Assembly (NCBI GenBank): GCA_003285105.1
Contig: CP030158.1
Span: 744,001-808,000 of the forward strand
Direction: 5' to 3'
DNA from: Roseithermus sacchariphilus
GTDB taxonomy: Bacteria > Bacteroidota > Rhodothermia > Rhodothermales > MEBIC09517
Length of the DNA stretch: 64,000 bases
Position 1 is the stretch's first letter; every line of letters starts with the position of its first letter. Below are positions 22,215 to 59,820 of the stretch, piece by piece. Position numbers and translations under genes: made by a program. The notes under the pieces were generated by a model. That model made no database searches, had not been told where the DNA came from, and was given only the letters and a program-made list of their open reading frames with translations.

Positions 22215-22219
22215 ATGGG

Positions 22220-22317
22220 GCTGCTGGCTGACCGCTGCGGGCTGCTGGCTGAAAGCTGCGGGCTGCTGGCTGAAAGCTGACGGCTGCTGGCTGAAAGCTG
22301 ACGGCTGGCCGCTGAAG
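22220..22317 (+). repeat. Heptamer array, GCTGNNN family (14 units)
   Basis: Fourteen exact-phase 7-bp units, all starting GCTG. The variable three bases are mostly CTG, AAA, ACG, CGG, ACC. A higher-order pattern is visible: the triplet GCTGCTG-GCTGAAA-GCTG(CGG/ACG) recurs three times (21-bp superperiod). Lies in the 500-bp gap between the sigma gene and smc; no gene is seen there. Confidence 0.92.
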
Positions 22318-22551
22318 GCTATGTCCCTGGCGGGGATGCATCCACCGGCCAACGCGCCGACCTCTCGGGAGGCCCCGGGTGGAAACAATAACGGACGACG
22401 TGCCCGTTAAAGGCGGCTCCGGCGGCCCGAGCCCCGCTTTTCGTAGCGCCACGGTCGTTTGCAAAACGGATGACCGCTGTGTTAATTGCGGCCTTCGGAG
22501 ACGCTTTCTCCCCCGGCCGGCTCACGGCCGCTCCCATCCATCGCCCCTCGC

Positions 22552-34191: not shown

Positions 34192-35283
34192 CTATCGCGC
34201 CCCTGTCTCCAGCGCCGCCACCAGCGCTTGCACGTTGACCCGGGCGCCGAAGATGCGGCTGTCGGCAGCCGCATAGGGGATGATGAGGTCGTCCCCGGAA
34301 CGATAGTTGGCGCAGGTAAAGAGCACGTTGTCGACGCCCAGTTCCGGGTCGCCCACCTGCTCGGCCGCGCCGCTGGGGCGCATCAGCGGCTCGATGCGGG
34401 CGCGCACCGGGTCCTCGGCCCGCAGGTCCAGCAGCGCCGCCGCCAGGTCGTACTCGCGCGTGCCCTCGGGGGTGTAATGACCCTGGTGGTAGATGGCCAG
34501 AAACCGCCCGTCGCCCAGCGCCAGGGGCGGCCCCCCGGCGCCGATCCACGACCGGGCGAACTCGCGGTACCGATAGCTCTCAAACAGCTTCCCGCACGAG
34601 CGCCACGGTCCGGCCGGCGAGGCGGCTTCGGCCAGGTGGATCGTCATGGCATCGGGCCCCGCCATCGGGCGGTGGAACAGGTACCACGTGCCGTCGACGG
34701 GTTCGGGAAAGAGGGCCGCATTCTTGTTGTCGACGTCGTTGAGATCGCCGGCAACGGGACCGTGGAGGGTCCAATCGACGAAATCCGTGGTGGTGGCGAG
34801 GCAGATGCGTACCCGGCGCGGGGCAGCGGGATCGGCGAGGTCATCCGTGCTGTAGCCGGTGTAGTAGAGGTAGTAGGTATCCCCCACCGGCGTGCAGCGC
34901 GCATCCTCGACCCCGAGGTTGTGAAACGCCGCCTCGGGCCGCAGCACGGGCACCGGATGACGATATACGAGCTCCAGCTCGGGTGTAAAGACGGCGAGCC
35001 CGAGCGACGACGGGGCTGCCTGTTTCACGGGATCGACCTCGCCCTGAGCCCGGTAGAGCATCACACATGCCCCGCCGGCTTCCTGCAGGCGTTGTACCGC
35101 CGCCTCCGGCAGTCCGCACCGGGCCGCCACGCGGTCCAGCACGGCCCGGTCGTGGACCAGTACGGCGGCCGGGTTCAGGACGACGCGAGACTCCCAGGCG
35201 TGCCCGGGATGGGGTTCGAGAATGGGCCGGCCTCCGTGCATTCGCTCCGGGGTCAGCGGCGGCATGGTTTCGATGGAACGCAT
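34192..35283 (-). CDS. GH130 family glycoside phosphorylase/hydrolase (copy 1)
   Basis: A 363-residue five-bladed beta-propeller enzyme without signal peptide, so cytosolic. GH130 features: catalytic region HNLGVEDARCTPVGDTYYLY with the conserved E-D pair, NKNAALFPEPVDGTWYLFHR, SWIGAGGPPL and DPELGVDNVLFTC. GH130 members cleave or phosphorolyse mannosides (beta-1,4 or beta-1,2) and some arabinofuranosides; the exact activity cannot be told. Last gene of the operon. Its start codon is preceded directly by a heptamer array, leaving no Shine-Dalgarno sequence. Confidence 0.9.
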   Translation of the reverse strand: MRSIETMPPLTPERMHGGRPILEPHPGHAWESRVVLNPAAVLVHDRAVLDRVAARCGLPEAAVQRLQEAGGACVMLYRAQGEVDPVKQAAPSSLGLAVFTPELELVYRHPVPVLRPEAAFHNLGVEDARCTPVGDTYYLYYTGYSTDDLADPAAPRRVRICLATTTDFVDWTLHGPVAGDLNDVDNKNAALFPEPVDGTWYLFHRPMAGPDAMTIHLAEAASPAGPWRSCGKLFESYRYREFARSWIGAGGPPLALGDGRFLAIYHQGHYTPEGTREYDLAAALLDLRAEDPVRARIEPLMRPSGAAEQVGDPELGVDNVLFTCANYRSGDDLIIPYAAADSRIFGARVNVQALVAALETGAR

Positions 35284-35419
35284 GGGGATTGGGAAATGCG
35301 GAATGTGGAGTTTGGAATGGGGAATGGGCGAGGGTCGAGGGACGGGCCCGGGAAACGGTTTTCTCTCCGCCCTTCGGCCTTCTTCCTTCGACCTTCACGC
35401 TGATGCAGGTCGGCGGCTG
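35284..35419. repeat. Composite heptamer gap element upstream of GH130 copy 1
   Basis: The whole 136-bp gap is patterned. At 35288-35329 six 7-bp units of the AATGNGG type (CATTCCN in the transcript) end 4 bp before the ATG. A linker carries GGGAAACGGTTTTCTCTCCGC (positions 35350-35370), and 35372-35399 holds four CTTCNNN units. The same order and similar linker occur at 39656-39785 upstream of the second GH130 gene. Confidence 0.88.
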
Positions 35420-39655: not shown

Positions 39656-39785
39656 GAGGGAGTCTGGAATGGGGAATGCGGGTTTTGGAGTGCGGAATGC
39701 GGAGTCTGGAATGGATGAATGAAGGATGAGGGTCGGATCCGAGAAACGGATTCTTCCGCCCCTCGCACTTCGTCCTTCGACCTTG
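39656..39785. repeat. Composite heptamer gap element upstream of GH130 copy 2
   Basis: Eight in-phase 7-bp units at 39661-39716 (AGTCTGG, AATGGGG, AATGCGG, GTTTTGG, AGTGCGG, AATGCGG, AGTCTGG, AATGGAT) start 6 bp from the ATG. The linker GAGAAACGGATTCTTCCGCC (39741-39760) precedes CTTCGTC-CTTCGAC-CTTGTCA (39768-39788), whose last unit overlaps the upstream stop codon. Paralogous to 35284-35419. Confidence 0.88.
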
Positions 39786-41198
39786 TCAGGATGCTAAAAA
39801 GGCTTCGAGCGCATCGCCTTCGAGAAGGCGGAACGGGCTGCCGTCGGAAGGCACAGCCACAGCCAGGCGGCGGCCCTCCCCGGCACGGAAGACGCGGTAA
39901 CGGTAGACCGTGCCGTCGCGTTCGACGGATTGCGGCGCATCGCCCCGGGCGAAGAGCCAGGCCCGGGCCTCCGGATGCCGCTCGACGGCCTGGAGCGTCA
40001 GCAGCGCCTCGATGGTCGACTCGGCACCGGCGTTGGCGTTGATCCGGTCCGGGCTGAGGATGCCGTCGTACCCGCGGCCGGTAGCGGGATCGTACATGGG
40101 CGTGGCAGCGGCGTTGTTGCCCGTCAGCCAGCTCGCCGCCAGCCCGGCCAGGACGGCGTAGCGACGGTCGCCGGTGGCCTCGGCCAGGGCCAGCAGGCCG
40201 GTGACGACGGGACGGACGCCGTAGGCGATCTGCTCGAAGCGGCGCACAGTGCCGGTTTCCAGGTCCACGCTGTGCAGCCAGCCGTCCACCAGCAGCCTCG
40301 GGAAGAAGCGCTCGGCCTCCTGCACGGCGCCGGCCGGATGCCCCGCCGCCACGAGCGCGGCGCTCTGGGCGTTACCCCAGGCGTGCCAGAGGGCACGCCA
40401 GGAGAGGTGCGCCGACGGCACCAGCGGATGGTCGGCATCCATCTGCATCAGCGCCACGCCCTCGGCCAGCCGATCGATCACCGACTGGAGCGTCGAATCC
40501 GGCCGGACGGCGCGCAGCGCCGTCAGCCCCAGCAGCAACTCGCTCGTCGCGTCGGCGGCCACCTCGCCGGGTAGCCAGCGCGGGTAGACGCGGCCGCCTA
40601 CGGTCGTCGTCTCGCCATAGCGGTGCAGGAGTTGCTGGAGGTGCGGCATCACGCGGAGGGCGCGCTCGGCGTACAGCGTGGCGGCGGCCGGGTCGGCGGA
40701 GTGCAGCACCCGCGCGCCCTCGCCGAGGGCCCAGACGGCCCGGGCCGTCCACCAGGTCACGCCCTCGGCCCGGCTGTTCGGGTGCTCCGTGTTGATGCGC
40801 AGCGTGCGGTCCCACACGAAGTTGTCGAACAGCCCGTCGGGCCGCTGCATGTACAGGATGAAGCGCAGCAGCGCCTCGGCTTTCGCCCGCGCCTCCGCAT
40901 CGCCCGTCTGCTCAACATGACGCAGGTACACCACCGCCGCGCGCGCCGCGTCGTCCACGCAGGCGATCCCCTCGTCGTCGTCGCCCACCCAGGCGTAGTC
41001 CGGCGCTTCGGCATAGATGTGAACGAGGCGATACGTGGTATCCCCACGCACGACCGTCTCCCCGAGGTGATCGAGGTGAGCCAGGTTGACGAGCGAAGGT
41101 GCCGCTTCCGGTCCAGCCGGCGCGTCCTTGCCGCCGCCACACGCCGCCCCGACGAGGGCGAGGCAGAGGACGAGGGTGCGGAATGCGGATGCCGGCAT
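39786..41198 (-). CDS. Alpha/alpha-toroid-like lipoprotein of the sugar operon
   Basis: About 470 residues from Met at 41198, giving a compact lipoprotein signal (MPASAFRTLVLCLALVGAAC). The frame stays open through a heptamer array to an ATG at 41300 that directly follows the permease stop (TAAATG), so a longer coupled product with an odd 34-residue leader cannot be excluded. The mature part is helical and W/H-rich: YAWVGDDDEGIACVDDAARA, FILYMQRPDGLFDNFVWDRT, EGVTWWTARAVWALGEG, LSWRALWHAWGNAQSAAL. This looks like an (alpha/alpha) toroid seen in glycan-processing proteins, but the family was not identified. Confidence 0.75.
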   Translation of the reverse strand: MPASAFRTLVLCLALVGAACGGGKDAPAGPEAAPSLVNLAHLDHLGETVVRGDTTYRLVHIYAEAPDYAWVGDDDEGIACVDDAARAAVVYLRHVEQTGDAEARAKAEALLRFILYMQRPDGLFDNFVWDRTLRINTEHPNSRAEGVTWWTARAVWALGEGARVLHSADPAAATLYAERALRVMPHLQQLLHRYGETTTVGGRVYPRWLPGEVAADATSELLLGLTALRAVRPDSTLQSVIDRLAEGVALMQMDADHPLVPSAHLSWRALWHAWGNAQSAALVAAGHPAGAVQEAERFFPRLLVDGWLHSVDLETGTVRRFEQIAYGVRPVVTGLLALAEATGDRRYAVLAGLAASWLTGNNAAATPMYDPATGRGYDGILSPDRINANAGAESTIEALLTLQAVERHPEARAWLFARGDAPQSVERDGTVYRYRVFRAGEGRRLAVAVPSDGSPFRLLEGDALEAFLAS

Positions 41199-41292
41199 GC
41201 GGCATGCGGCATGCGGCATGCCAGTACCGCATCGCTCGGCACCCATTCGACATTCGACACGCGACACGCGGCCATCGACGTTTGTCATTCGA
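41175..41292. repeat. Two heptamer blocks overlapping a gene start
   Basis: Block 1 (41175-41223): GGTGCGG, AATGCGG, ATGCCGG, CATGCGG three times, CATGCCA. Block 2 (41244-41292): CATTCGA twice, CACGCGA, CACGCGG, CCATCGA, CGTTTGT, CATTCGA. Each block is 7 units in unbroken phase; 20 bp separate them. They lie between the permease stop and the lipoprotein signal peptide and are in an open frame with the latter. Confidence 0.85.
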
Positions 41293-42110: not shown

Positions 42111-42112
42111 CG

Positions 42113-42147
42113 GCTGTGGGCTGATCGCTGACGGCTAACGGCTGACG
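42113..42147 (+). repeat. Heptamer array, GCTNNNN family (5 units), filling an intercistronic gap
   Basis: GCTGTGG, GCTGATC, GCTGACG, GCTAACG, GCTGACG in exact phase, then GCCATTC. The array begins 2 bp from the MalG-like start codon and ends 5 bp from the MalF-like stop, so the gap between the two permeases is essentially all repeat. Confidence 0.85.
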
Positions 42148-42152
42148 GCCAT

Positions 42153-43060: not shown

Positions 43061-43197
43061 GCTTCTGGCTGTGGGCTTCTGGCTATTCGCTGCTGGCCGG
43101 GGGCTGTGGGCTATTGGCTCAGGGCTGGCGGTTCAGGCGAATACCCCCCGTAAGCCTGTGCTGCCGACGCATTCCGCATTCCAACATCCCAATGCCG
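43061..43197. repeat. Gap with both heptamer families
   Basis: Block 1 (43061-43137): eleven in-phase units starting GCT/GCC/GTT, such as GCTTCTG, GCTGTGG, GCTATTC, GCTGCTG, GCTATTG, GCTCAGG. Block 2 (43170-43197): CATTCCG, CATTCCA, ACATCCC, AATGCCG. Block 1 starts 8 bp upstream of the MalF-like start; block 2 ends 10 bp from the binding-protein stop. No gene is seen in the gap. Confidence 0.85.
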
Positions 43198-45633: not shown

Positions 45634-48600
45634 CTATTTGATCACCGCAAACCGTCCCACGTGCTCGCCGATGCCGGGTGCCTCCACGTGGTAGAGATAG
45701 ACGCCATAGGCGACGTCCATCCCGTCTCGGGTCAGCAGGTCCCACGCCAGCTGCCCGTTATCGAGGGTGCTGTCGTGGTGGAGGGTCTGCACGAGCTGGC
45801 CGGTGAGGGTGTAAATGCGGACGGTGCACCGGGGCGGCAGGTTCATGAAGTAGAGCCGCCGCTCCCCGCGTCCGACGAGGTACGGGTTGGCCGGTTCGAA
45901 CCGGCTCGTGGCGACGTACGGGTTGGGCACCACGTAGATGTCATCCAGGTCGTCGCGGGCCTTTTCGGCGTCGAAGGTCGCTGGCGAGAAGGCGAAGGTG
46001 ACGCGATCGCCCGTCTGAAAGGGTTTAGCGGTCCGGAACGAGAGCACCGTACCCGGTGCGGGCGGCACCACCGGCACGCCCTCGTCGATCAAGGGATCGG
46101 GCGGGACGAGGCGGAACGCCCATCCGGCCCGCCAGCGGCCTCCCTGGAACTGCGGCTCCAGGCCCGGGGCCTCGCCGTCGACGAGGACGACCAGGTCGCC
46201 GTGGTCATACTGCCCGTTGCGCAGCGAATCCACGTCTTCCACGACGATCACCGGCTGCCGCTCGCCCGTCGTCCGGTTCTCTACGTAGAACGGCAGCGGC
46301 ATCTCGCGCAGGCCGAAGGCCAGCCGCAGCGACGTATCGGCCGGCGCCCCGGTCAGGTGCACGGCATAGTCGGCCGGGAACGGCACGAAGCGCTCCGGGC
46401 TGACCACGGCGGAGACGGTGCCAGGGGTGACGACGGGCCGGTAGGTGCCGCCGTCGCCCGCGGTGAACTGCACGGTCGAGTCGATCACGGCGATCTCGCC
46501 AGGAGCGTCGAGCGTGATGGCGAAGCCATCCACCACCGGCAGTTCGAACAGCCCGCTCGGGACGGTCCCCTCCTCCAGCACCGTGTTCGTGGCAAGGTCG
46601 GTGAGGGTATAGGCCGGGTTCACATCCGTCCCCCAGACGTCCTCGTTCCGGAAGGCCAGTTCGTAGCGGGCCTCGCTGCGCAGCGCCGTCGGGGCCAGGA
46701 TGTGCACGTCCACGGCACCCGTGCCGGTCAGCGCGGCGTCATAGGTGGCCAGGTCGGGCGGGACGTAGCCGGCCGCCGGAGCGCTCGGCGTCACGCAGGC
46801 CGTGTTCTGATCATAGACCAGATTGCCGGCCAGGTCGCTGTTGATCGTGGCCGTGGTGATCGACGGCGAGATCCCGTCCACCTGCCCGTCCGGCCGCGTC
46901 GGCAGCGAGCCGTCCTCGTTGGGCGTTACCAGCCCGCGGTCGTACGCAACGACGGCGTAGCAGTAGGTCTGGCCGTTGACGACGTCGCGGTCGATGAAGC
47001 TGTGACGCAGGCCGCTGTCCGTGCCGAGGTTGAACTGCACGCCGTTGACGGCCACGGGGTGCAGCCCCCGGATGCCGTTTTTGAGGTCGAACTGCGCCAG
47101 CGGCTGCTGGTAGACGACGTTGCCGTAGGCGTCGGTGATGGAAAGCCGCTCGCGGAAGTTGGGCTCGGTGGAGCGGTAGACGAGGTAGCCCTCGAAGTCG
47201 AATTCGCGCAGGAACGGGTCGTAGGATTGCTCGGCGCGCTTGTCCCAGACGAGCGTGACCTGCCCGTCGCCGGGGATGACCTGGAGCGTCGGCTTGTCCG
47301 GCGGGCGCGCGAAGCGGTAGTTGGCGTTGTAGATCTGCTGGACGGTCTGCTTCTTCCGGGCCAGCGCCGAGTTCTCGACCTGCCGGGGGTCGGTGAAGTC
47401 CTTCTCGGCGAAGAGCAGCGCCATGGAGAAGCGCTCGGTCTGCCCGGCTTTGAGGGGAAACGGCCCGGAAGCGAAGAACATGCCGAGGTTGCGTCCGCCC
47501 TCGAGCACGACGTCGTCGATGGGTGGCAGGGCGCGGGAGAAGATGCGGAAGTTCTCCTCGTCGTCGATCAGCTCGTAGCGGTGCACGTCGAAGACGGAGA
47601 AGCCGGTCAGGCCGATCTGATCGGACTCGTCCTTGTCGAGCGCGTCGAAGTTCGGCTCGCCGGCGGTGGGGCGGCCGTCGCCCTCGCCGAGGTCGCGGCC
47701 GGGGTAGTTGGGCGCGGAGGGGCCGAGGCCGTCGGCGCCGACGTCGTCGTTGAGCGGCTCGCCCTCGTCCCATTCGCCGTTCTCGTTGAGGTCGCTGAAG
47801 CCGCGCCAGTTCAGGTTTTCGTCACCCGTCCACCCGTAGCCCTGCTGCATGGCCGCGGTCCGCTCCAGCGGGCCGTAGAATGCCTCGAAGGCGGCGAGGT
47901 CATAGCGGGCCTCCACGTAGGCCCGGATGGCGTCGGACCCCTCGAGGCGCTCCCCGGGGCCGCCGTCGCGCACCTCGTCCGTGATCCCGTCTTCGTCGTT
48001 GTCGATGCCGTCGGTGGCAATGCCGGGCGACTCGAGGAACGCATAGCCCACCGTTCCCACCGGCCCCCACTGCCCGGGCGAGCCGACGCCGTCGAAGTCC
48101 CAGGCGAAGGCGAGGTCGAGCTTCGTGTTGTAGGCGCCCTCGTCGTCTCCCGAATCGTCCGTGCCGCCCACGCCCCAGTCGATGTACTGCGCGAAGTAGA
48201 CCTCGTCGTAGTCGACGTCGCACTCGTTGGTGATCTCGTAGATCCAGAAGATGACGTCCTGGGCCAGCGGGTGGCTCCACTGGAAGCCGCGCGCGGCCAC
48301 CTCCAGGCCGAGCCCGCCGCGCGTGGTGTCGTCCGGGCAGGGGAAGAAGCGGTGGGGCTCCTGCGTCCACTCGCGGTCGGGGGCATCGTCGAAGACGAAG
48401 TAGGTTTCCACGTCCGCGTTCTGCACCCCGCGGCCGAAGAAGCCGTTCCACTGGCCGGCCCAGTCGACGGGCCGGTCGGGCCAGGTGGCGGGCCAGGTCG
48501 AGGGATCGTCCGAGCGGGCCGGCGAGGCCTGGCGCGGGTTGGCATAGCCGGGCACGGGCGCCCAGCCCCAGGCGACCTTCGTGACCGGGTCGCGGTCGAT

Positions 48601-49050
48601 GAACTCGCGGTAGTTGGTGCTCATCGGGTAGATGGTGCGGCCCTCGGCGTCGCGGGTTTTGGCCGAGACGATGAAAGCCACCCCGTCCACGTAGGAATGG
48701 CCGCTGCCTTTGGGCCACTCGCCGGAGGGTTGATCCGGCCACCGGGCGATCTCGCCGTAGTTGGAGTAGAGCGTGCGGACGCGGTTACCGTCGAGCACGC
48801 CCCATTGCGTCAGGCGCGGCTCACCCTGAGCCGGATCGGGGACGCGCTGGCCCAGGGCCGGCCCGGCGAGGCAGGTCAGCAGCAGAATCGCTGCTGTGAA
48901 GGCGGATTCCGGAACGATGCCAATGCGGAGTTTGGAATGCGGAATGCGGAATGAGTCCAATGCGGAAGGGAGGCGCGAGAGGGCCGAGGGTGCCATCGTG
49001 GTGAGAGAGCGGCACACAGCGAGGGTGGTATGAAGGAGGGGACTCATCAT
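45634..49050 (-). CDS. Large T9SS cargo protein with fibronectin-like domains
   Basis: About 1138 residues. The start is uncertain: ATG at 49050 overlaps the upstream stop as ATGA, but it puts about 45 residues, part encoded by a heptamer array, ahead of the signal peptide (SAFTAAILLLTCLAGPALGQ). No Met lies closer than 48996. The mature protein has an N-terminal domain with WGWAPVPGYANP, Ca-binding-like DGIDNDEDGITDE and DLNENGEWDEGE, a fibronectin III-like part (PDKPTLQVIPGDGQVTLVWD), further beta domains and a C-terminal sorting domain (VVPNPY; TVRIYTLTGQLVQTL; VYLYHVEA). It resembles uncharacterised surface proteins encoded next to PorV and TonB genes. Function unknown. Confidence 0.82.
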   Translation of the reverse strand: MMSPLLHTTLAVCRSLTTMAPSALSRLPSALDSFRIPHSKLRIGIVPESAFTAAILLLTCLAGPALGQRVPDPAQGEPRLTQWGVLDGNRVRTLYSNYGEIARWPDQPSGEWPKGSGHSYVDGVAFIVSAKTRDAEGRTIYPMSTNYREFIDRDPVTKVAWGWAPVPGYANPRQASPARSDDPSTWPATWPDRPVDWAGQWNGFFGRGVQNADVETYFVFDDAPDREWTQEPHRFFPCPDDTTRGGLGLEVAARGFQWSHPLAQDVIFWIYEITNECDVDYDEVYFAQYIDWGVGGTDDSGDDEGAYNTKLDLAFAWDFDGVGSPGQWGPVGTVGYAFLESPGIATDGIDNDEDGITDEVRDGGPGERLEGSDAIRAYVEARYDLAAFEAFYGPLERTAAMQQGYGWTGDENLNWRGFSDLNENGEWDEGEPLNDDVGADGLGPSAPNYPGRDLGEGDGRPTAGEPNFDALDKDESDQIGLTGFSVFDVHRYELIDDEENFRIFSRALPPIDDVVLEGGRNLGMFFASGPFPLKAGQTERFSMALLFAEKDFTDPRQVENSALARKKQTVQQIYNANYRFARPPDKPTLQVIPGDGQVTLVWDKRAEQSYDPFLREFDFEGYLVYRSTEPNFRERLSITDAYGNVVYQQPLAQFDLKNGIRGLHPVAVNGVQFNLGTDSGLRHSFIDRDVVNGQTYCYAVVAYDRGLVTPNEDGSLPTRPDGQVDGISPSITTATINSDLAGNLVYDQNTACVTPSAPAAGYVPPDLATYDAALTGTGAVDVHILAPTALRSEARYELAFRNEDVWGTDVNPAYTLTDLATNTVLEEGTVPSGLFELPVVDGFAITLDAPGEIAVIDSTVQFTAGDGGTYRPVVTPGTVSAVVSPERFVPFPADYAVHLTGAPADTSLRLAFGLREMPLPFYVENRTTGERQPVIVVEDVDSLRNGQYDHGDLVVLVDGEAPGLEPQFQGGRWRAGWAFRLVPPDPLIDEGVPVVPPAPGTVLSFRTAKPFQTGDRVTFAFSPATFDAEKARDDLDDIYVVPNPYVATSRFEPANPYLVGRGERRLYFMNLPPRCTVRIYTLTGQLVQTLHHDSTLDNGQLAWDLLTRDGMDVAYGVYLYHVEAPGIGEHVGRFAVIK
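48922..48965 (-). repeat. Heptamer array, CATTCCG orientation in transcript (6 units)
   Basis: Plus-strand AATGCGG, AGTTTGG, AATGCGG, AATGCGG, AATGAGT in phase (48922-48956), then AATGCGG shifted by 2 bp. It is read in frame within the 5' coding region of the T9SS cargo gene. Relative to 49451-49560 it is inverted. The 13-nt run CATTCCAAACTCC (minus strand) is shared exactly with 35284-35419. Confidence 0.85.
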
Positions 49051-49433
49051 GCCGACTTCTGCAAGCACTTGTTGCGGCGGGCGGTGCGGATCGAGGTGAC
49101 GATGATGGCCAGGAGTTCGTTGGCTTCCTGGAGCAGGAGTTCGACGCGGGCGGCCTCGACCAGGTCGGCCCCGATGAGCAGTTCGATCCAGTAGATCGTC
49201 TCATCGGCTTCCTCTTCGACGATTCCCATCTTCGCGATGAACTCGGCCCGCGAGCGGCCCCGGCACGCGGCCCGGTAGTTGGCGCCCACGGAGGTCGCGC
49301 TTCGCAACAGCTGGCGGCCGATCACATCCGCCGTGCGCCCCCGCGGCAGCGCCTCCACCAGCCGAACCACCCGCAATGCAAAGGCCTGCGTCCTCTGCTT
49401 CAAATCCTTCTCTGTCACCTGTTTGCCCGGCAT
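49047..49433 (-). CDS. Four-helix bundle protein (S23/Avd-like, TIGR02436 type)
   Basis: A 128-residue all-helical protein. Start MPGKQVTEKD at 49433 is supported by GGAGGG 4 nt upstream; the frame also runs open through the heptamer array to a TTG at 49562. Family pattern: QLLRSATSVGANYRAACRGR, SRAEFIAKMGIVEEEADETI and YWIELL. This is the four-helix bundle family first known from ORFs inside 23S rRNA intervening sequences and related to the Avd accessory protein of diversity-generating retroelements (established knowledge). Its molecular role is unknown. It is out of place in a sugar operon and lies between two inverted heptamer arrays, as an inserted cassette would. Confidence 0.93.
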   Translation of the reverse strand: MPGKQVTEKDLKQRTQAFALRVVRLVEALPRGRTADVIGRQLLRSATSVGANYRAACRGRSRAEFIAKMGIVEEEADETIYWIELLIGADLVEAARVELLLQEANELLAIIVTSIRTARRNKCLQKSA

Positions 49434-49450
49434 AATGCCCTCCGTCGAAT

Positions 49451-49560
49451 CATTCCGCATTCCCCATTCTGCATTCCGCATTCTGCATTCCCCATTCCCC
49501 ATTCTGCATTCCACATTCCCCATTCTGCATTCCGCATTCTGCATTCCCCATTCCGCATTC
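49451..49560 (-). repeat. Longest heptamer array, CATTCNN (15 full units plus one partial)
   Basis: Fifteen consecutive 7-bp units on the plus strand, every one starting CATTC; the last two bases are CG, CC, TG or CA. A sixteenth CATTC overlaps the TGA stop of the TonB receptor gene. In the transcript it reads NGGAATG/CAGAATG, giving an ATG every 7 nt between that stop and the four-helix-bundle ribosome site. Because no unit puts A after TG, it is free of stop codons in this strand's frames apart from the receptor's own stop. Confidence 0.95.
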
Positions 49561-52237
49561 AAAAGTTGATACTCATCCCCAGCGTCACCTGCCGCGGCGC
49601 AGCGTAGAAGTCCGGTCGCTGGAGAAACTCGGTCTTGCTGTTGAGGCCCTGTGCGGTGCCGCTGTAGTAGCGCAGGTTCGGCGTGGGGCGGCCGGTGTCG
49701 GTGTAGACGCTGGTCACGTTGCGCGCATCAAAGACATTGTAGACCCGCAGGAACAGCCCGGGCTGCAGGCGGCCGAGGGCGAGCCGGCGCGAGGCGAACA
49801 GGTCGAACGTAGCCGTGCCGGGCATCCGGGCCGAGTTCTCCAGGCCCGTTCGCTCGTCGGCGATGGACGGCGTGTAGGGCAGGCCCGTGCCCAGCCGCCC
49901 GATGAGGCTCACCAGCCCGGCGCCGCGATCGGCCTGGCCGACGGTCAGGCGCAGGTTGAGCTGGTGCCGGCGGTCCCAGTCCAGCGGCACGAGCTGCTTG
50001 TTCGGCTCGGCACCGCTCTGCTCGGCGATGAGCACGTCGCGCGGGTTGCTGGCATTGCCGCGGGCGATCTGGAACGTGTAATCCACCGCCAGCGTATAGC
50101 CGTCGGCCGGCCGCCGCTCGAAGGACAGGATGACGCCCTTGACCTGGCCGTAGTCGCGGTTGACGTACCGGCCGTAGCGGGAGAGCTGGAAGTCCTCACC
50201 CACGCCGGCCGCGATCGTCTCGATGCGCGTGCCGAGCAGGTTGCGGATGTCCTTGTAATAGAGCGTCACGTCCATCCCGATGAGGTCCGTAAAGGCCTGC
50301 TGGAGCCCGATCTCGTAGGCGATGGTCTGCTGCGGCTCCAGGTCGGCATAGCCGAAGGCCCGGTTGAGGCCCTGCTCGGGATCGTAGATGTAATCCGGGT
50401 TGGTGTAGAGGAAATCGAACGGGGGCATCTGGAAGAAATGGCCGTAGGCCACGTGCACGACGCCGCGCTCGGAGAGCGGGTAGGCCAGCCCGAAGCGCGG
50501 CGAGAGCTGCCACTTGACCGAGGTGGGCCTCCGCTCGCCGGTACGCGGCCGCCCGAAATCTTCGAGCACCTCGGCGCGGGCGTCGAAGTAGTCCAGCCGC
50601 AGGCCGAGGTTGACCACCAGGTAGTCGAACTCCATCTTGTCCTGCACGTAGGCGCTGCCCTCGACGGGCTCCTGGAGGTAGGCCACGTGATCCGGCGTCC
50701 CGGCCGGCGGGATGGCCGGCTGGAAGCCGGTACCGGCATTGTTCTTCACCTCGAACGAGGTCAGGTCGAGGCGGTGGCGCTTGACCTCCACGCCGGTCTT
50801 CACGAGATGGCGGCGGGTGACCTGGCTGGTGAAGTCGGCGCGAGCCACCTGCGTCCGCGTCTGACGGCTGAAGTGCGTCATGCGCGCGCCGCCGAGGAAG
50901 AAGCTGAAGCTGGGCCGCAGCTCGCGCAGGGCGGCATCGCGCGGATAGCGCGGGTCGAGCGGGTCTTCGTAGACGTATTCGTCGACGCCGTTCTGGAACA
51001 GCGCCAGCTTGAGGTCCAGGAAGCTGCGGGCGCCGAAGACGTGGTTGTAGGTCGCCAGCAGCGAGTACGAATCTCCGTAGACCGTAGGGATGCCGTCGGG
51101 GTTGTAGCGAAACAGGTGGTCGTAGTTCTGGCCCCGGTCCTGCTGACGCAGGCCGTTCAGCGTGAGCCGGCTGCTGCCCCAGAGGCGCGCGCTGAGCTTG
51201 AGCTGGGCGGTGGCCTGCTCGCTCCAGTTCATCGGCACATAGGCGCTGTCCCCGAGCGCCGGGACGAGCACGACGCGCGGCTCCTGGCTGCCGTCATCGA
51301 CCACGACGGCCTGCCGGTCGGGCGTTTCGGCGTAGACCGGCTCGACGATGCGGCGGCCGTAGAGGAAGCCGTCGTTGCGCACGAACCGGCCGGAGCCGAA
51401 GAACGTCAGCCGCTCGCCGAGCCCCGGCACCGGCCCGCTCAGCGTCCCCTGCACCTCGTAGGTGCCCGTGGGCGAGACGCCACGGCCCCGCGGAAAGAGG
51501 TCGGTGGCCGCCGTCGCATAATCCCCCAGGTACGCGTTCAGGCTCCCCTCGTACGTGGCGCCGCCGTCCTTCGTGACGATGTTCACCACCCCCGACTGGG
51601 CCTGCCCGTATTCGGCGTTGAACGTGCCGGAGATGATCTCGACCTCCTGGATGGCGTTGTTCTCCACCTGAAAGGCGAAGTTCTGGTCGTAGACGTCGTT
51701 GACCGGCACGCCGTCGACCAGGTAGGCCACCTCCCCGATGCGTCCGCCGCGGAAATGCCCGTCCACCACACCGGCCTGCAGATTGACCACGTCCGAGAAG
51801 CTCTGCACCGGCAGGGCGTCGAGCTGCTCGGAAGACACCGACACGGAGGACGAGGTCAGGTCTCGCTGCACCAGCGGCCGCGAGGCCGTCACGACGACCT
51901 CCTCGCCCTCGAGCACCTCCTCGGCCAGCTGGAAGTCCAGCTCCGTCGTCTGGTTGATCAGCACACGCACGCCCTCGACGACCTGCGGCGTGAAGCCGAT
52001 GAGGGAGGCCCGGACGGCGTAGGTGCCCGGACGGAGGTTGAGGATGGTGTAGTATCCGTCGACGTCGGTGGCGGCACCCAGGGTGGTGCCCTGCACGACC
52101 ACGTTCACACCCGGCAGACCCTCGCCGGTAGCGGCATCCAGCACCCGCCCGGCGATCTTGCCCGTCTGGGCCGCCGCCGGGGGCACCAATCCCACCAGCA
52201 ACAGCAGCACGACGCCCCGGATCATGCGCTCGGCCAT
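49559..52237 (-). CDS. TonB-dependent outer-membrane receptor with carboxypeptidase-regulatory domain
   Basis: About 892 residues from Met at 52237 (signal MAERMIRGVVLLLLVGLVPP...AAAQ); the frame continues to an ATG at 52336 overlapping the upstream stop. N-terminal CarboxypepD_reg-like domain (GKIAGRVLDAATGEGLPGVN), plug domain (VVVTASRPLVQRDLTSSSVS; AYLVDGVPVNDVYD; NAEYGQAQSGVVNIVTKDGG) and a 22-strand-like barrel ending in QVTLGMSINF with a terminal Phe. Energised by TonB-ExbBD, it probably imports oligosaccharides across the outer membrane for the ABC system. SusD is absent; the neighbouring beta-sandwich protein may serve as surface binder. Confidence 0.94.
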   Translation of the reverse strand: MAERMIRGVVLLLLVGLVPPAAAQTGKIAGRVLDAATGEGLPGVNVVVQGTTLGAATDVDGYYTILNLRPGTYAVRASLIGFTPQVVEGVRVLINQTTELDFQLAEEVLEGEEVVVTASRPLVQRDLTSSSVSVSSEQLDALPVQSFSDVVNLQAGVVDGHFRGGRIGEVAYLVDGVPVNDVYDQNFAFQVENNAIQEVEIISGTFNAEYGQAQSGVVNIVTKDGGATYEGSLNAYLGDYATAATDLFPRGRGVSPTGTYEVQGTLSGPVPGLGERLTFFGSGRFVRNDGFLYGRRIVEPVYAETPDRQAVVVDDGSQEPRVVLVPALGDSAYVPMNWSEQATAQLKLSARLWGSSRLTLNGLRQQDRGQNYDHLFRYNPDGIPTVYGDSYSLLATYNHVFGARSFLDLKLALFQNGVDEYVYEDPLDPRYPRDAALRELRPSFSFFLGGARMTHFSRQTRTQVARADFTSQVTRRHLVKTGVEVKRHRLDLTSFEVKNNAGTGFQPAIPPAGTPDHVAYLQEPVEGSAYVQDKMEFDYLVVNLGLRLDYFDARAEVLEDFGRPRTGERRPTSVKWQLSPRFGLAYPLSERGVVHVAYGHFFQMPPFDFLYTNPDYIYDPEQGLNRAFGYADLEPQQTIAYEIGLQQAFTDLIGMDVTLYYKDIRNLLGTRIETIAAGVGEDFQLSRYGRYVNRDYGQVKGVILSFERRPADGYTLAVDYTFQIARGNASNPRDVLIAEQSGAEPNKQLVPLDWDRRHQLNLRLTVGQADRGAGLVSLIGRLGTGLPYTPSIADERTGLENSARMPGTATFDLFASRRLALGRLQPGLFLRVYNVFDARNVTSVYTDTGRPTPNLRYYSGTAQGLNSKTEFLQRPDFYAAPRQVTLGMSINF

Positions 52238-52252
52238 ACGTCGCTCAGGCCG

Positions 52253-52316
52253 GGGGTTGCGAGGGACGAGGCACACCTCCCCGAGGAGGGCACCGAACCT
52301 CATCCCCCGCAACCCC
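52253..52316 (-). promoter_or_regulatory. Nested hairpin in TonB receptor leader
   Basis: Outer 9-bp stem GGGGTTGCG/CGCAACCCC (52253-52261 with 52308-52316) encloses a CCTCC-CCGA-GGAGG hairpin. It occupies the 95-bp gap before the preferred receptor start and could attenuate or stabilise the mRNA. Confidence 0.45.
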
Positions 52317-52332
52317 TGCTCTGCACCCTGCA

Positions 52333-54975
52333 TCATTTCACCAGCACCATCCTGCGCGTCTCGACGTGATTTGCCGTGCGGAGCACGTACAGATACGTTC
52401 CGCTCGGCAGACCGGACGCGTCGAACTGAACCTCGTGCTGTCCAGCCCGCATCAGCCCATCGACCAGCGTGGCCACGCGCTGTCCGAGGAGGTTGTAGAC
52501 GGCCAGCGTGGCATGGGTCGCTTCGGGCAGGTCGAAGCGCAGCATCGTGGTCGGGTTGAAGGGGTTCGGGTAGTTCTGGTGGAGCAGATACCGGCCCGGC
52601 AGTTCGTTCGTCCCGGGCTCTTCTTCGATGGCCGTGCCGGTGAGGCTCCCGCCTCCCAGCGCGACGATCGAGACGTCATCCCAGTAGGTGGTGCCTTCGA
52701 AGGCGTGCCAGTAGCGCAGGCGCAACTCCATCCCGACCGCCCCCTCCTTCGGATACACCACGAACGCATACTGCGTCCAACCCGTCGACGCCTCCCGCTT
52801 CGCCAGCGGAATCACCTGCTCGTTGTACTCCCCGTTCAACCGGATGTCCACACCCCCGATCTCCCCCCAGCCGGCCGCACCGCCCGACAGGTTCTCGTAC
52901 CACAACGCCGTCATCCCGATGTTGTAGTCCCCCGCCTCCGGATCCCCGATCTTCTCCGGCTCCGGTACCCCCTCGGTCTTCACCCAGAAACTCACCAGCA
53001 CCGGCTCGCCCTCCGTCACCGGCACCCGCTCCGAAATCGCCACCGACTCCGTCGCCTCCGTCACGTTCTGCACCAGCTTCAAACTGTACGTGCCCGTGTG
53101 CGCCGCCTCGTCGCTCACCGTCTGGATGAACGGCTGGTTCTCCGGCCAGTCCGCCCTCCCGCACGGAAAGCAGTCCCACCAGTAGTACCACGTGTCCCCC
53201 GCGTCCACGTTCGCGTTGAAGATGTCGCCCGGCCACACGTCCGGCGTCGTCGTCGCCACGAACCAGTCGTCGACGTAGACCGTCCCCGTCGCCGCGGCCC
53301 CCTTGCGCACCGTGATGCGCGCGCTCTGCGCGTCCTGCGGCAGCGTGATCGCCCCCAGCGTCGTGTTGTCCACCTTCACCCAGCCCTCGCTCGAGGCCGC
53401 CTCCTGCGGCAGGTCGATCACCACCGCCTCGCCCAGCAGGTTCGTCCCCCCGGCCACATCGAAGAACTCCAGCACGATCTGAAACTTCTCCTCGTCCGAG
53501 GCCGGGTTCGTGTTCACCCCCTCGGTCTTCACCCACGCCCCGAACTGCAACTCCGCGTTGCCCGGAAAGCGCGGTGACCAGTTGCGCACGGCCTCGTCCA
53601 TCACCCAGGCCGCCGCCCCCTCGCCCGAGAGCTTCAGGCTGTAGGCCGGCGTGCGGCTCTGCTCCGTCGTCCACGTCGCCCCGGACCCCTCGGCCCGCCA
53701 GTACGCCGGCTTCCCCGCCTCGAATCCCCCGTTCGTCAGCAGGTTGGGCAGGACACCCAGCACGCTGCTGACCGGAGCAACGAAGACGTCATCCCAGTAG
53801 GTGGTGCCCTCGAAGGCGTGCCAGTAGCGCAGGCGCAACTCCATCCCGACCGCCCCCTCCTTCGGATACACCACGAACGCATACTGCGTCCAACCCGTCG
53901 ACGCCTCCCGCTTCGCCAGCGGAATCACCTGCTCGTTGTACTCCCCGTTCAACCGGATGTCCACACCCCCGATCTCCCCCCAGCCGGCCGCACCGCCCGA
54001 CAGGTTCTCGTACCACAACGCCGTCATCCCGATGTTGTAGTCCCCCGCCTCCGGATCCCCGATCTTCTCCGGCTCCGGTACCCCCTCGGTCTTCACCCAG
54101 AAACTCACCAGCACCGGCTCGCCCTCCGTCACCGGCACCCGCTCCGAAATCGCCACCGACTCCGTCGCCTCCGTCACGTTCTGCTCCAGCTTCAAACTGT
54201 ACGTGCCCGTGTGCGCCGCCTCGTCGCTCACCGTCTGGATGAACGGCTGGTTCTCCGGCCAGCCCGCCTCCCCGCACGAAAAACAGTCCCACCAGTAGTA
54301 CCACGTGTCCCCCGCGTCCACGTTCGCGTTGAACAGGTCCCCGGCCCACACGTCCGGCGTCGTCGTCGCCACGAACCAGTCGTCGACGTAGACCGTCCCC
54401 GTCGCCGCGGCCCCCTTGCGCACCGTGATGCGCGCGCTCTGCGCGTCCTGCGGCAGCGTGATCGCCCCCAGCGTCGTGTTGTCCACCTTCACCCAGCCCC
54501 CGCTCGAAGCCTCGGCCTGCGGCAGGTCGATCACGACGGCCTCGCCCAGCAGGTTCGTCCCCCCGGCCACATCGAAGAACTCCAGCACGATCTGAAACTT
54601 CTCCTCGTCCGAGGCCGGGTTCGTGTTCACCCCCTCGGTCTTCACCCACGCCCCGAACTGCAACTCCGCGTTGCCCGGAAAGCGCGGCGACCAGTTGCGC
54701 ACGGCCTCGTCCATCACCCAGGCCGCCGCCCCCTCGCCCGAGAGCTTCAGGCTGTAGGCCGGCGTCCGGCTCTGCTCCGTCGTCCACGTCGCCCCGGACC
54801 CCTCGGCCCGCCAGTACGCCGGCTTCCCCGCCTCGAATCCCCCGTTCGTCAGCAGGTTCACGGGCGAATCGGCTGTCAGCATATCCAGCCCGCTCTGCTG
54901 AGCCCGGACGGAGCCGGGATGCAGCAGGCCTACGGCTACCACGAGTAGCGATAACATGCGTAGCGTTGATTTCAT
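52333..54975 (-). CDS. T9SS surface protein with two near-identical 371-residue repeats
   Basis: About 880 residues from Met at 54975 (signal MKSTLRMLSLLVVAVGLLHP...RAQ). Each repeat contains two beta-sandwich modules of carbohydrate-binding type (LLTNGGFEAGKPAYWRAEGS; AITVRKG-like strand; SYSLKL and FWVKTEGV phrases; EGTTYWDDV), resembling CBM4/9-like or galactose-binding folds (inference). The C-terminus is a classic type A sorting domain (LLHQNYPNPFNPTTMLRFDL, then LAVYNLLGQRVATLVDG, ending RRMVLVK). First gene of the operon, just downstream of a LacI-type operator; likely a surface glycan-binding protein feeding the TonB receptor. Confidence 0.88.
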   Translation of the reverse strand: MKSTLRMLSLLVVAVGLLHPGSVRAQQSGLDMLTADSPVNLLTNGGFEAGKPAYWRAEGSGATWTTEQSRTPAYSLKLSGEGAAAWVMDEAVRNWSPRFPGNAELQFGAWVKTEGVNTNPASDEEKFQIVLEFFDVAGGTNLLGEAVVIDLPQAEASSGGWVKVDNTTLGAITLPQDAQSARITVRKGAAATGTVYVDDWFVATTTPDVWAGDLFNANVDAGDTWYYWWDCFSCGEAGWPENQPFIQTVSDEAAHTGTYSLKLEQNVTEATESVAISERVPVTEGEPVLVSFWVKTEGVPEPEKIGDPEAGDYNIGMTALWYENLSGGAAGWGEIGGVDIRLNGEYNEQVIPLAKREASTGWTQYAFVVYPKEGAVGMELRLRYWHAFEGTTYWDDVFVAPVSSVLGVLPNLLTNGGFEAGKPAYWRAEGSGATWTTEQSRTPAYSLKLSGEGAAAWVMDEAVRNWSPRFPGNAELQFGAWVKTEGVNTNPASDEEKFQIVLEFFDVAGGTNLLGEAVVIDLPQEAASSEGWVKVDNTTLGAITLPQDAQSARITVRKGAAATGTVYVDDWFVATTTPDVWPGDIFNANVDAGDTWYYWWDCFPCGRADWPENQPFIQTVSDEAAHTGTYSLKLVQNVTEATESVAISERVPVTEGEPVLVSFWVKTEGVPEPEKIGDPEAGDYNIGMTALWYENLSGGAAGWGEIGGVDIRLNGEYNEQVIPLAKREASTGWTQYAFVVYPKEGAVGMELRLRYWHAFEGTTYWDDVSIVALGGGSLTGTAIEEEPGTNELPGRYLLHQNYPNPFNPTTMLRFDLPEATHATLAVYNLLGQRVATLVDGLMRAGQHEVQFDASGLPSGTYLYVLRTANHVETRRMVLVK
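52671..54858 (-). repeat. 1113-bp-period internal tandem duplication
   Basis: 52671-53745 and 53784-54858 are aligned copies (1075 bp each, period 1113 bp = 371 codons) with roughly two dozen differences by eye, grouped in patches such as the WWDCF(S/P)CG(E/R) region. The reading frame is kept. Confidence 0.95.
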
Positions 54976-55084
54976 GACGATCACCGTTCTGGTTTACGTG
55001 ACAGGGGGAACCGGGCAGACGACGGGGAGGCGGACCGCGCCTCCGCATACGGGCCCTGTTCGGCCCTCGAGGATTCGAGTATGT

Positions 55085-57536: not shown

Positions 57537-57590
57537 CCCCGGGCAGACCCCGGGCAGACCCCGGGCAGACCCCGGGCAGACCCCGGGCAG
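57537..57590 (+). repeat. 11-bp tandem repeat with CCCGGG core
   Basis: Five copies of CCCCGGGCAGA (last one partial), beginning 4 bp after the stop codon of the previous gene. Units are identical, implying recent expansion. Confidence 0.95.
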
Positions 57591-59691: not shown

Positions 59692-59761
59692 GACAGGCTC
59701 GAACGAGAAAAGGGCTGTGGGCGAATGGTGCGTGAGCAACGGGGGCCGACCGACGTGCCAC

Positions 59762-59820
59762 GTCACCCGCCCGGGCCGTCACCCGACCGGGCGGTCACCC
59801 GACCGGGCCGTCGCCCGTCT
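59762..59820. repeat. 16-bp tandem repeat
   Basis: Three units of GTCACCCGACCGGGCC type (59762-59777, 59778-59793, 59794-59809) and a partial fourth. The array spans the gap before rhaM and the last codons of the small membrane protein, whose stop lies in unit 3. Confidence 0.85.

Follow-up and report, generated by a model that had tools for sequence, protein, structure and literature searches.

Structures of S23 proteins have been available since 2006, and despite these structures we know of no function that has been assigned to the family. An S23 open reading frame (ORF) is found in the intervening sequence (IVS) of the 23S rRNA of Coxiella burnetii, which has a 28-bp terminal stem within which RNase III cuts (PMC4990558). 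Three copies of the heptamer GACAGAT and one of GACAGAA are located upstream of this ORF, and their copy number varies between strains (PMC4990558). We infer that these four heptamers form the terminal stem of the Coxiella IVS (4 x 7 = 28). The related four-helix protein Avd is, in solved structures, a component of the reverse-transcriptase ribonucleoprotein of diversity-generating retroelements (DGRs; 8ub7, 8ube). Intergenic heptamer arrays have been described in Xanthomonas (GGGAATC) and Nostoc (GGGGA(C/T)T) (PMC4692102) and in Beggiatoaceae (TAACTGA; PMC4679880), and Xanthomonas has about 70 convergent inverted array pairs per genome (PMC4692102). One of these two papers treats quadruplexes and the other translational regulation, and a text search of both found no mention of S23. 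Among open-licence papers in PMC we found none that links S23 to heptamers.

We found that an S23 gene in the window (the whole stretch of DNA that was analysed, 64,000 nucleotides) lies between two converging heptamer arrays, and that gene and arrays almost certainly make up one composite inserted element (48922 to 49560, minus strand). The gene (S23, 23S_rRNA_IVP or four-helix-bundle; 49047 to 49433, minus strand) is 387 bp long, begins with ATG and encodes 128 amino acids. The upstream arm (49451 to 49560, minus strand) contains about 15.7 units of GAATGNN as read on the sense strand of the gene, that is, five fixed positions followed by two free ones, or CATTCNN on the plus strand. The downstream arm (48922 to 48965, plus strand) contains inverted units of the GAATGCG type: 4.6 copies of AATGCGG from 48922 to 48953, becoming degenerate to 48965. 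The initial annotation had described a four-helix-bundle (S23/Avd-like) gene of this length between opposed arrays, and both the coordinates and the HMM profile scores agree with it (PF05635, 62.7 bits, cut-off 33.8; TIGR02436, 87 bits, cut-off 24). PF05635 is the sole Pfam domain in the protein.

Three consecutive GAATGNN units with at most two mismatches matched 22 times in the window, compared to 0.09 expected from shuffles. The 4.81-Mb genome has the exact triple at just four places; two of these flank the S23 gene, and the reversed pattern that served as a control does not occur. Two more arrays of the GGAATGC type stand alone in the window, with no adjoining S23 gene (35282-35328 and 39659-39713), and are possible non-autonomous remnants. 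Other period-7 arrays in the window, whose units are AGCGGTC, GGGCTGC/GGCTGAA, TGCGGCA, CGGCTGA and CGCATTC, lie at 2795-2840, 22218-22320, 41177-41270, 42111-42149 and 43168-43182. Elsewhere in the same genome (C1, at about 948 kb; L309:3880-4102), an array of GTCGAAG-like units adjoins an array of CATTCCC, again with no S23 gene. The window also has a protein of 883 amino acids with two near-identical halves (52333-54984), from a recent internal duplication of ~1.1 kb, a perfect 11-bp repeat in 4.9 copies (57537-57590) and a 16-bp repeat in 3.6 copies (59761-59817).

The element is located between two protein genes and outside any rRNA gene. To its left is a gene for a TonB-dependent receptor (49559 to 52336, minus strand) whose stop codon (49559-49561) overlaps with the first repeat, as had been reported. 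To its right is a gene for a secreted protein of about 1140 amino acids (45634 to 49050, minus strand). The initial annotation placed the other array inside the 5' end of this gene, which was correct, and stated that its signal peptide had no start codon nearby. This can be refined: an in-frame ATG-ATG at 49050 overlaps the S23 stop codon. The frame can open there and run through the downstream arm before reaching the signal peptide.

We compared this junction to the orthologous one in relatives. Six genomes, which belong to four other families of the same order, have orthologues of the TonB receptor (67-75% identity) and of the right gene (69-76%) directly next to each other, with neither S23 nor arrays. 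The gap between the aligned parts is 46-201 bp in these six relatives and 682 bp in the window. The window element starts at the TonB stop codon, and its downstream arm occupies what in the relatives is the start of the right gene. Because six relatives are empty here, the gene and arrays are not conserved at this site throughout the phylum. A conserved resident gene of the order was rejected on the same grounds and because PF05635 is absent from 31 of 60 relatives. Phage cargo was also rejected; only 7 relatives were found among 2.9 million viral contigs.

Empty sites, which the initial annotation had proposed looking for, were found at two other junctions as well. Between trpG and trpD, four genomes of one family have an element, and the site is empty in G032 of the same family and in the other genomes examined. 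Between trpS and trpG, G005, G019, G047 and G054 have an element, and three congeners of G047 and G054 do not. These sites show insertion or loss, and the two cannot always be separated, as with G032 at trpG-trpD. No target-site duplication of the kind expected for an insertion sequence or MITE was identified; the inverted array ends are present, and their limits are too degenerate for a duplication to be delimited. The der site shows decay. S23 is intact there in one species, two species have wrecked frames and have kept the arms, and in one further species the gene is gone and what remains is a hairpin of array sequence about 80 nt long. Where S23 is intact, it evolves under purifying selection, with dN/dS < 0.3 in the orthologous pairs for which both values could be computed. 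The earlier description of the locus as a candidate mobile cassette is supported in the sense of an element that is inserted and polymorphic for presence and absence, short of autonomous mobility.

The window element is one copy of a class that is spread over many bacterial phyla. We took 80 homologue loci, chosen by protein sequence alone, from more than ten phyla; several of the loci in this work come from MAGs. Up to 300 bp from the S23 domain, period-7 arrays had a density of 2.0 per kb, compared to 0.09-0.19 per kb farther out, and none of the other periods between 4 and 13 was enriched locally in this way. An array was present within 300 bp at 57 of the 80 S23 loci and at 23 of 218 control ORFs. 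Several of these controls turned out to be second S23 genes. The proposed enrichment near homologues held. By this strict test 23 of the 80 loci had no array. Polarity was nearly fixed: upstream arrays were 54 sense to 1 antisense and downstream arrays 6 sense to 55 antisense. Inverted array pairs 280-700 bp apart enclosed an S23 gene in 39 of 45 cases. We considered whether array pairs carry different cargo and rejected this; of 11 ORFs from such pairs that were inspected by eye, 4 look like further S23 genes, and the others showed no common family.

The same arrangement of gene and arrays is found on plasmids of Cyanobacteria, Chloroflexota, Bacteroidota, Spirochaetota and Bacillota, and in operons that include hsdS/hsdR, cas2/cas1 and DISARM/BREX-like genes; the four-helix-bundle/S23 family in cas loci had already been remarked on in a survey (PMC3936711). 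Median gaps to the neighbouring genes over all loci were 53 bp upstream and 31 bp downstream. In Patescibacteria, 22 of 30 S23 loci had arrays, and no rRNA was found at 20 S23 loci, so that an rRNA location was rejected for this group. PF05635 was present in 134 of 240 Patescibacteria genomes (G060-G316), with up to 13 copies in genomes of ~1 Mb. A deltaproteobacterial locus (L168) has many arrays, with units of the types GATTGCG, GTGAACC, GTGTCAG and GGTCAGT, and the genome to which it belongs, G066, has 19 PF05635 matches. Translated arrays give 7-residue repeats such as LRFAICD and SAIRTPQ (L127:529-1029; L184:3590-4288), because 21 bp is seven codons, and can produce gene calls that are spurious or too long. 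Repeats of this kind should not be taken as protein.

The two arms of an element match each other. Among 40 loci of the window's order, the mean score for arm complementarity was 27.98, compared to a maximum of 21.35 in 20,000 permutations. In the diverse set, 29 of 42 loci had arms that matched at 6 or more of 7 positions, compared to 17% when loci were swapped. For orthologous elements, arms of the same element scored 29.8 and arms from different loci 22.3, indicating that both arms switch unit together. The unit at trpG-trpD, for example, is GGGTACN in one species and GGGTTCN in another, with both arms agreeing, and at another orthologous site it is GTGATGC or GTATTGC. This joint switching indicates homogenisation between the arms, by conversion or templated synthesis. 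The unit also follows the protein. Over 138 loci, S23 protein identity correlated with unit similarity (r = 0.56; 0 of 2000 permutations). For loci of a single order, among which less variation in base composition is expected, r was 0.48. The consensus unit over diverse phyla is GAWTKNN.

It could be argued that these are ordinary microsatellites, that is, heptamer slippage arrays that build up in tolerant spacers where S23 genes happen to sit. Among the intergenic tandem repeats of prokaryotes, heptamers are the most frequent (PMC6344855), and some arrays do occur without S23. However, this reading does not account for a local density at least tenfold higher and limited to period 7, a polarity of 54:1 and 55:6, arms that are inverted and matching, a unit that is predicted by protein clade, and an empty site that lacks both arms. 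We consider it very improbable, and chance or a generic microsatellite is ruled out by period specificity, polarity and matched arms. Alternatively, the arrays might be operator or leader sites through which S23 regulates its own transcript or shields it from the host operon, with the element spreading passively by recombination. Such self-regulation would fit arrays that flank the gene closely and have a fixed polarity, and concerted arms are consistent with selection for pairing. This alternative leaves unexplained the stand-alone arrays distant from S23 and the arms that persist at the der site after loss of the gene, and we regard it as quite unlikely.

Arrays and S23 are not tied together everywhere. 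About half of the arrays (98 of 208) were not near any S23 gene. In a gammaproteobacterial family with GGGANTN arrays, 15 of 22 S23 loci were flanked, and over 59 genomes of the family S23 and arrays were associated (15 with both, 5 with S23 only, 10 with arrays only, 29 with neither; odds ratio 8.7, p = 6e-4). With ten genomes having arrays and no detectable S23, and five having S23 and no arrays, neither strictly needs the other today. A profile specific to the family found no diverged S23, of a kind that PF05635 would not match, in the ten genomes with arrays alone, indicating that arrays can persist without S23.

The AlphaFold model of the window S23 is a four-helix bundle (mean pLDDT 91). 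Foldseek placed the S23 structures 2rld (TM 0.86-0.91) and 2gsc first, followed by Avd (4dwl, TM 0.80-0.83) and then Avd in the DGR ribonucleoprotein (8ub7, 8ube). The relation to Avd that the initial annotation had pointed out is supported by the 4dwl match (TM 0.83). In the minimum-energy RNA fold of the window element, the arms are paired around the ORF (z = -2.9).

The arrays might instead act as DNA. In such a system, similar to RAYT and REP, S23 would bind the arrays as a hairpin or cruciform and mobilise them through a host or partner enzyme, and pairing in RNA would be incidental. Arrays that stand alone at dispersed places and short array hairpins, with units of like kinds, speak for such a system, as do the association of S23 with GGGANTN arrays, the der-site remnant that has arms and no gene, and the 5 of 80 elements that are antisense to both neighbours. 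In contrast, S23 is a four-helix domain alone, with no recognisable catalytic domain, nuclease or transposase, and 51 of 80 elements run in the same direction as both neighbours, an arrangement that speaks for a function at the level of the transcript. We think that a DNA-level system is unlikely.

Our preferred reading, to which we assign a probability of roughly 60%, is that the element is inserted, that its arms pair and are processed in RNA, and that S23 is the cognate binder and propagator of its repeats. Pairing of the arms in a read-through transcript would form a long imperfect stem whose loop contains the S23 coding sequence, similar to a 23S rRNA IVS. RNase III would cut this stem, and host genes would then tolerate the insertion. 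By analogy with the IVSs, it is probable that the arms pair and are processed in this way. An S23 oligomer with the Avd-like fold would bind the unit (GAATGNN in the window) as its cognate partner; recognition of the heptamer by S23 is likely, a view that the protein-unit correlation and the fold strengthen. S23 would help to propagate or rewrite the element. It may even be required for spread, a point on which we lean slightly to the negative. Stand-alone arrays and short array hairpins would be non-autonomous derivatives, as REP is relative to RAYT.

It is conceivable, although we hold this only tentatively, that S23 and heptamer arrays form a single widespread gene-repeat system, older and broader than the known rRNA IVSs, in which the heptamer specific to each clade is read by an S23 oligomer that also actively rewrites the two arms, through templated synthesis or conversion. 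If so, arm rewriting by S23 would explain the joint switches of unit, as well as a large part of the abundance of intergenic heptamers in prokaryotes, which has had no explanation. With the preferred reading, heptamer repeats in bacteria that have had no explanation gain a candidate partner protein and each S23 protein gains a putative repeat partner. The 23S rRNA IVSs would then appear as one special case within a wider class of elements, and there would be a reason for the small 'four helix bundle' genes that interrupt trp, restriction, BREX/DISARM-like and cas operons.

The window element and the 23S rRNA IVS, as the latter is described in PMC4990558, both have an S23-family ORF in a loop between complementary inverted ends. 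The IVS is inside the 23S rRNA gene and is excised by RNase III, whereas the present elements are between protein genes and have heptamer arrays that are longer and fast-changing. Similar to RAYT and REP(IN), the S23 element has a gene flanked by inverted repeats and dispersed repeat copies that outlive the gene. However, RAYT is a Y1 HUH transposase, whereas S23 has the S23/Avd fold, which is not known to be catalytic. Each REP is a single palindrome, and the repeats of S23 elements are tandem heptamers. Avd (4dwl, 8ub7) has the same four-helix fold as S23 (TM 0.79-0.83) at about 15% identity. Avd of DGRs is next to a reverse transcriptase and template and variable repeats, none of which was seen beside the window element; the genes that adjoin it encode a TonB receptor and a secreted protein. 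The arrays of Xanthomonas, Nostoc and Beggiatoaceae, like those at S23 genes, are intergenic and have conserved and free positions, and GGGANTN units as in Xanthomonas also flank S23 in the gammaproteobacterial family that was sampled.
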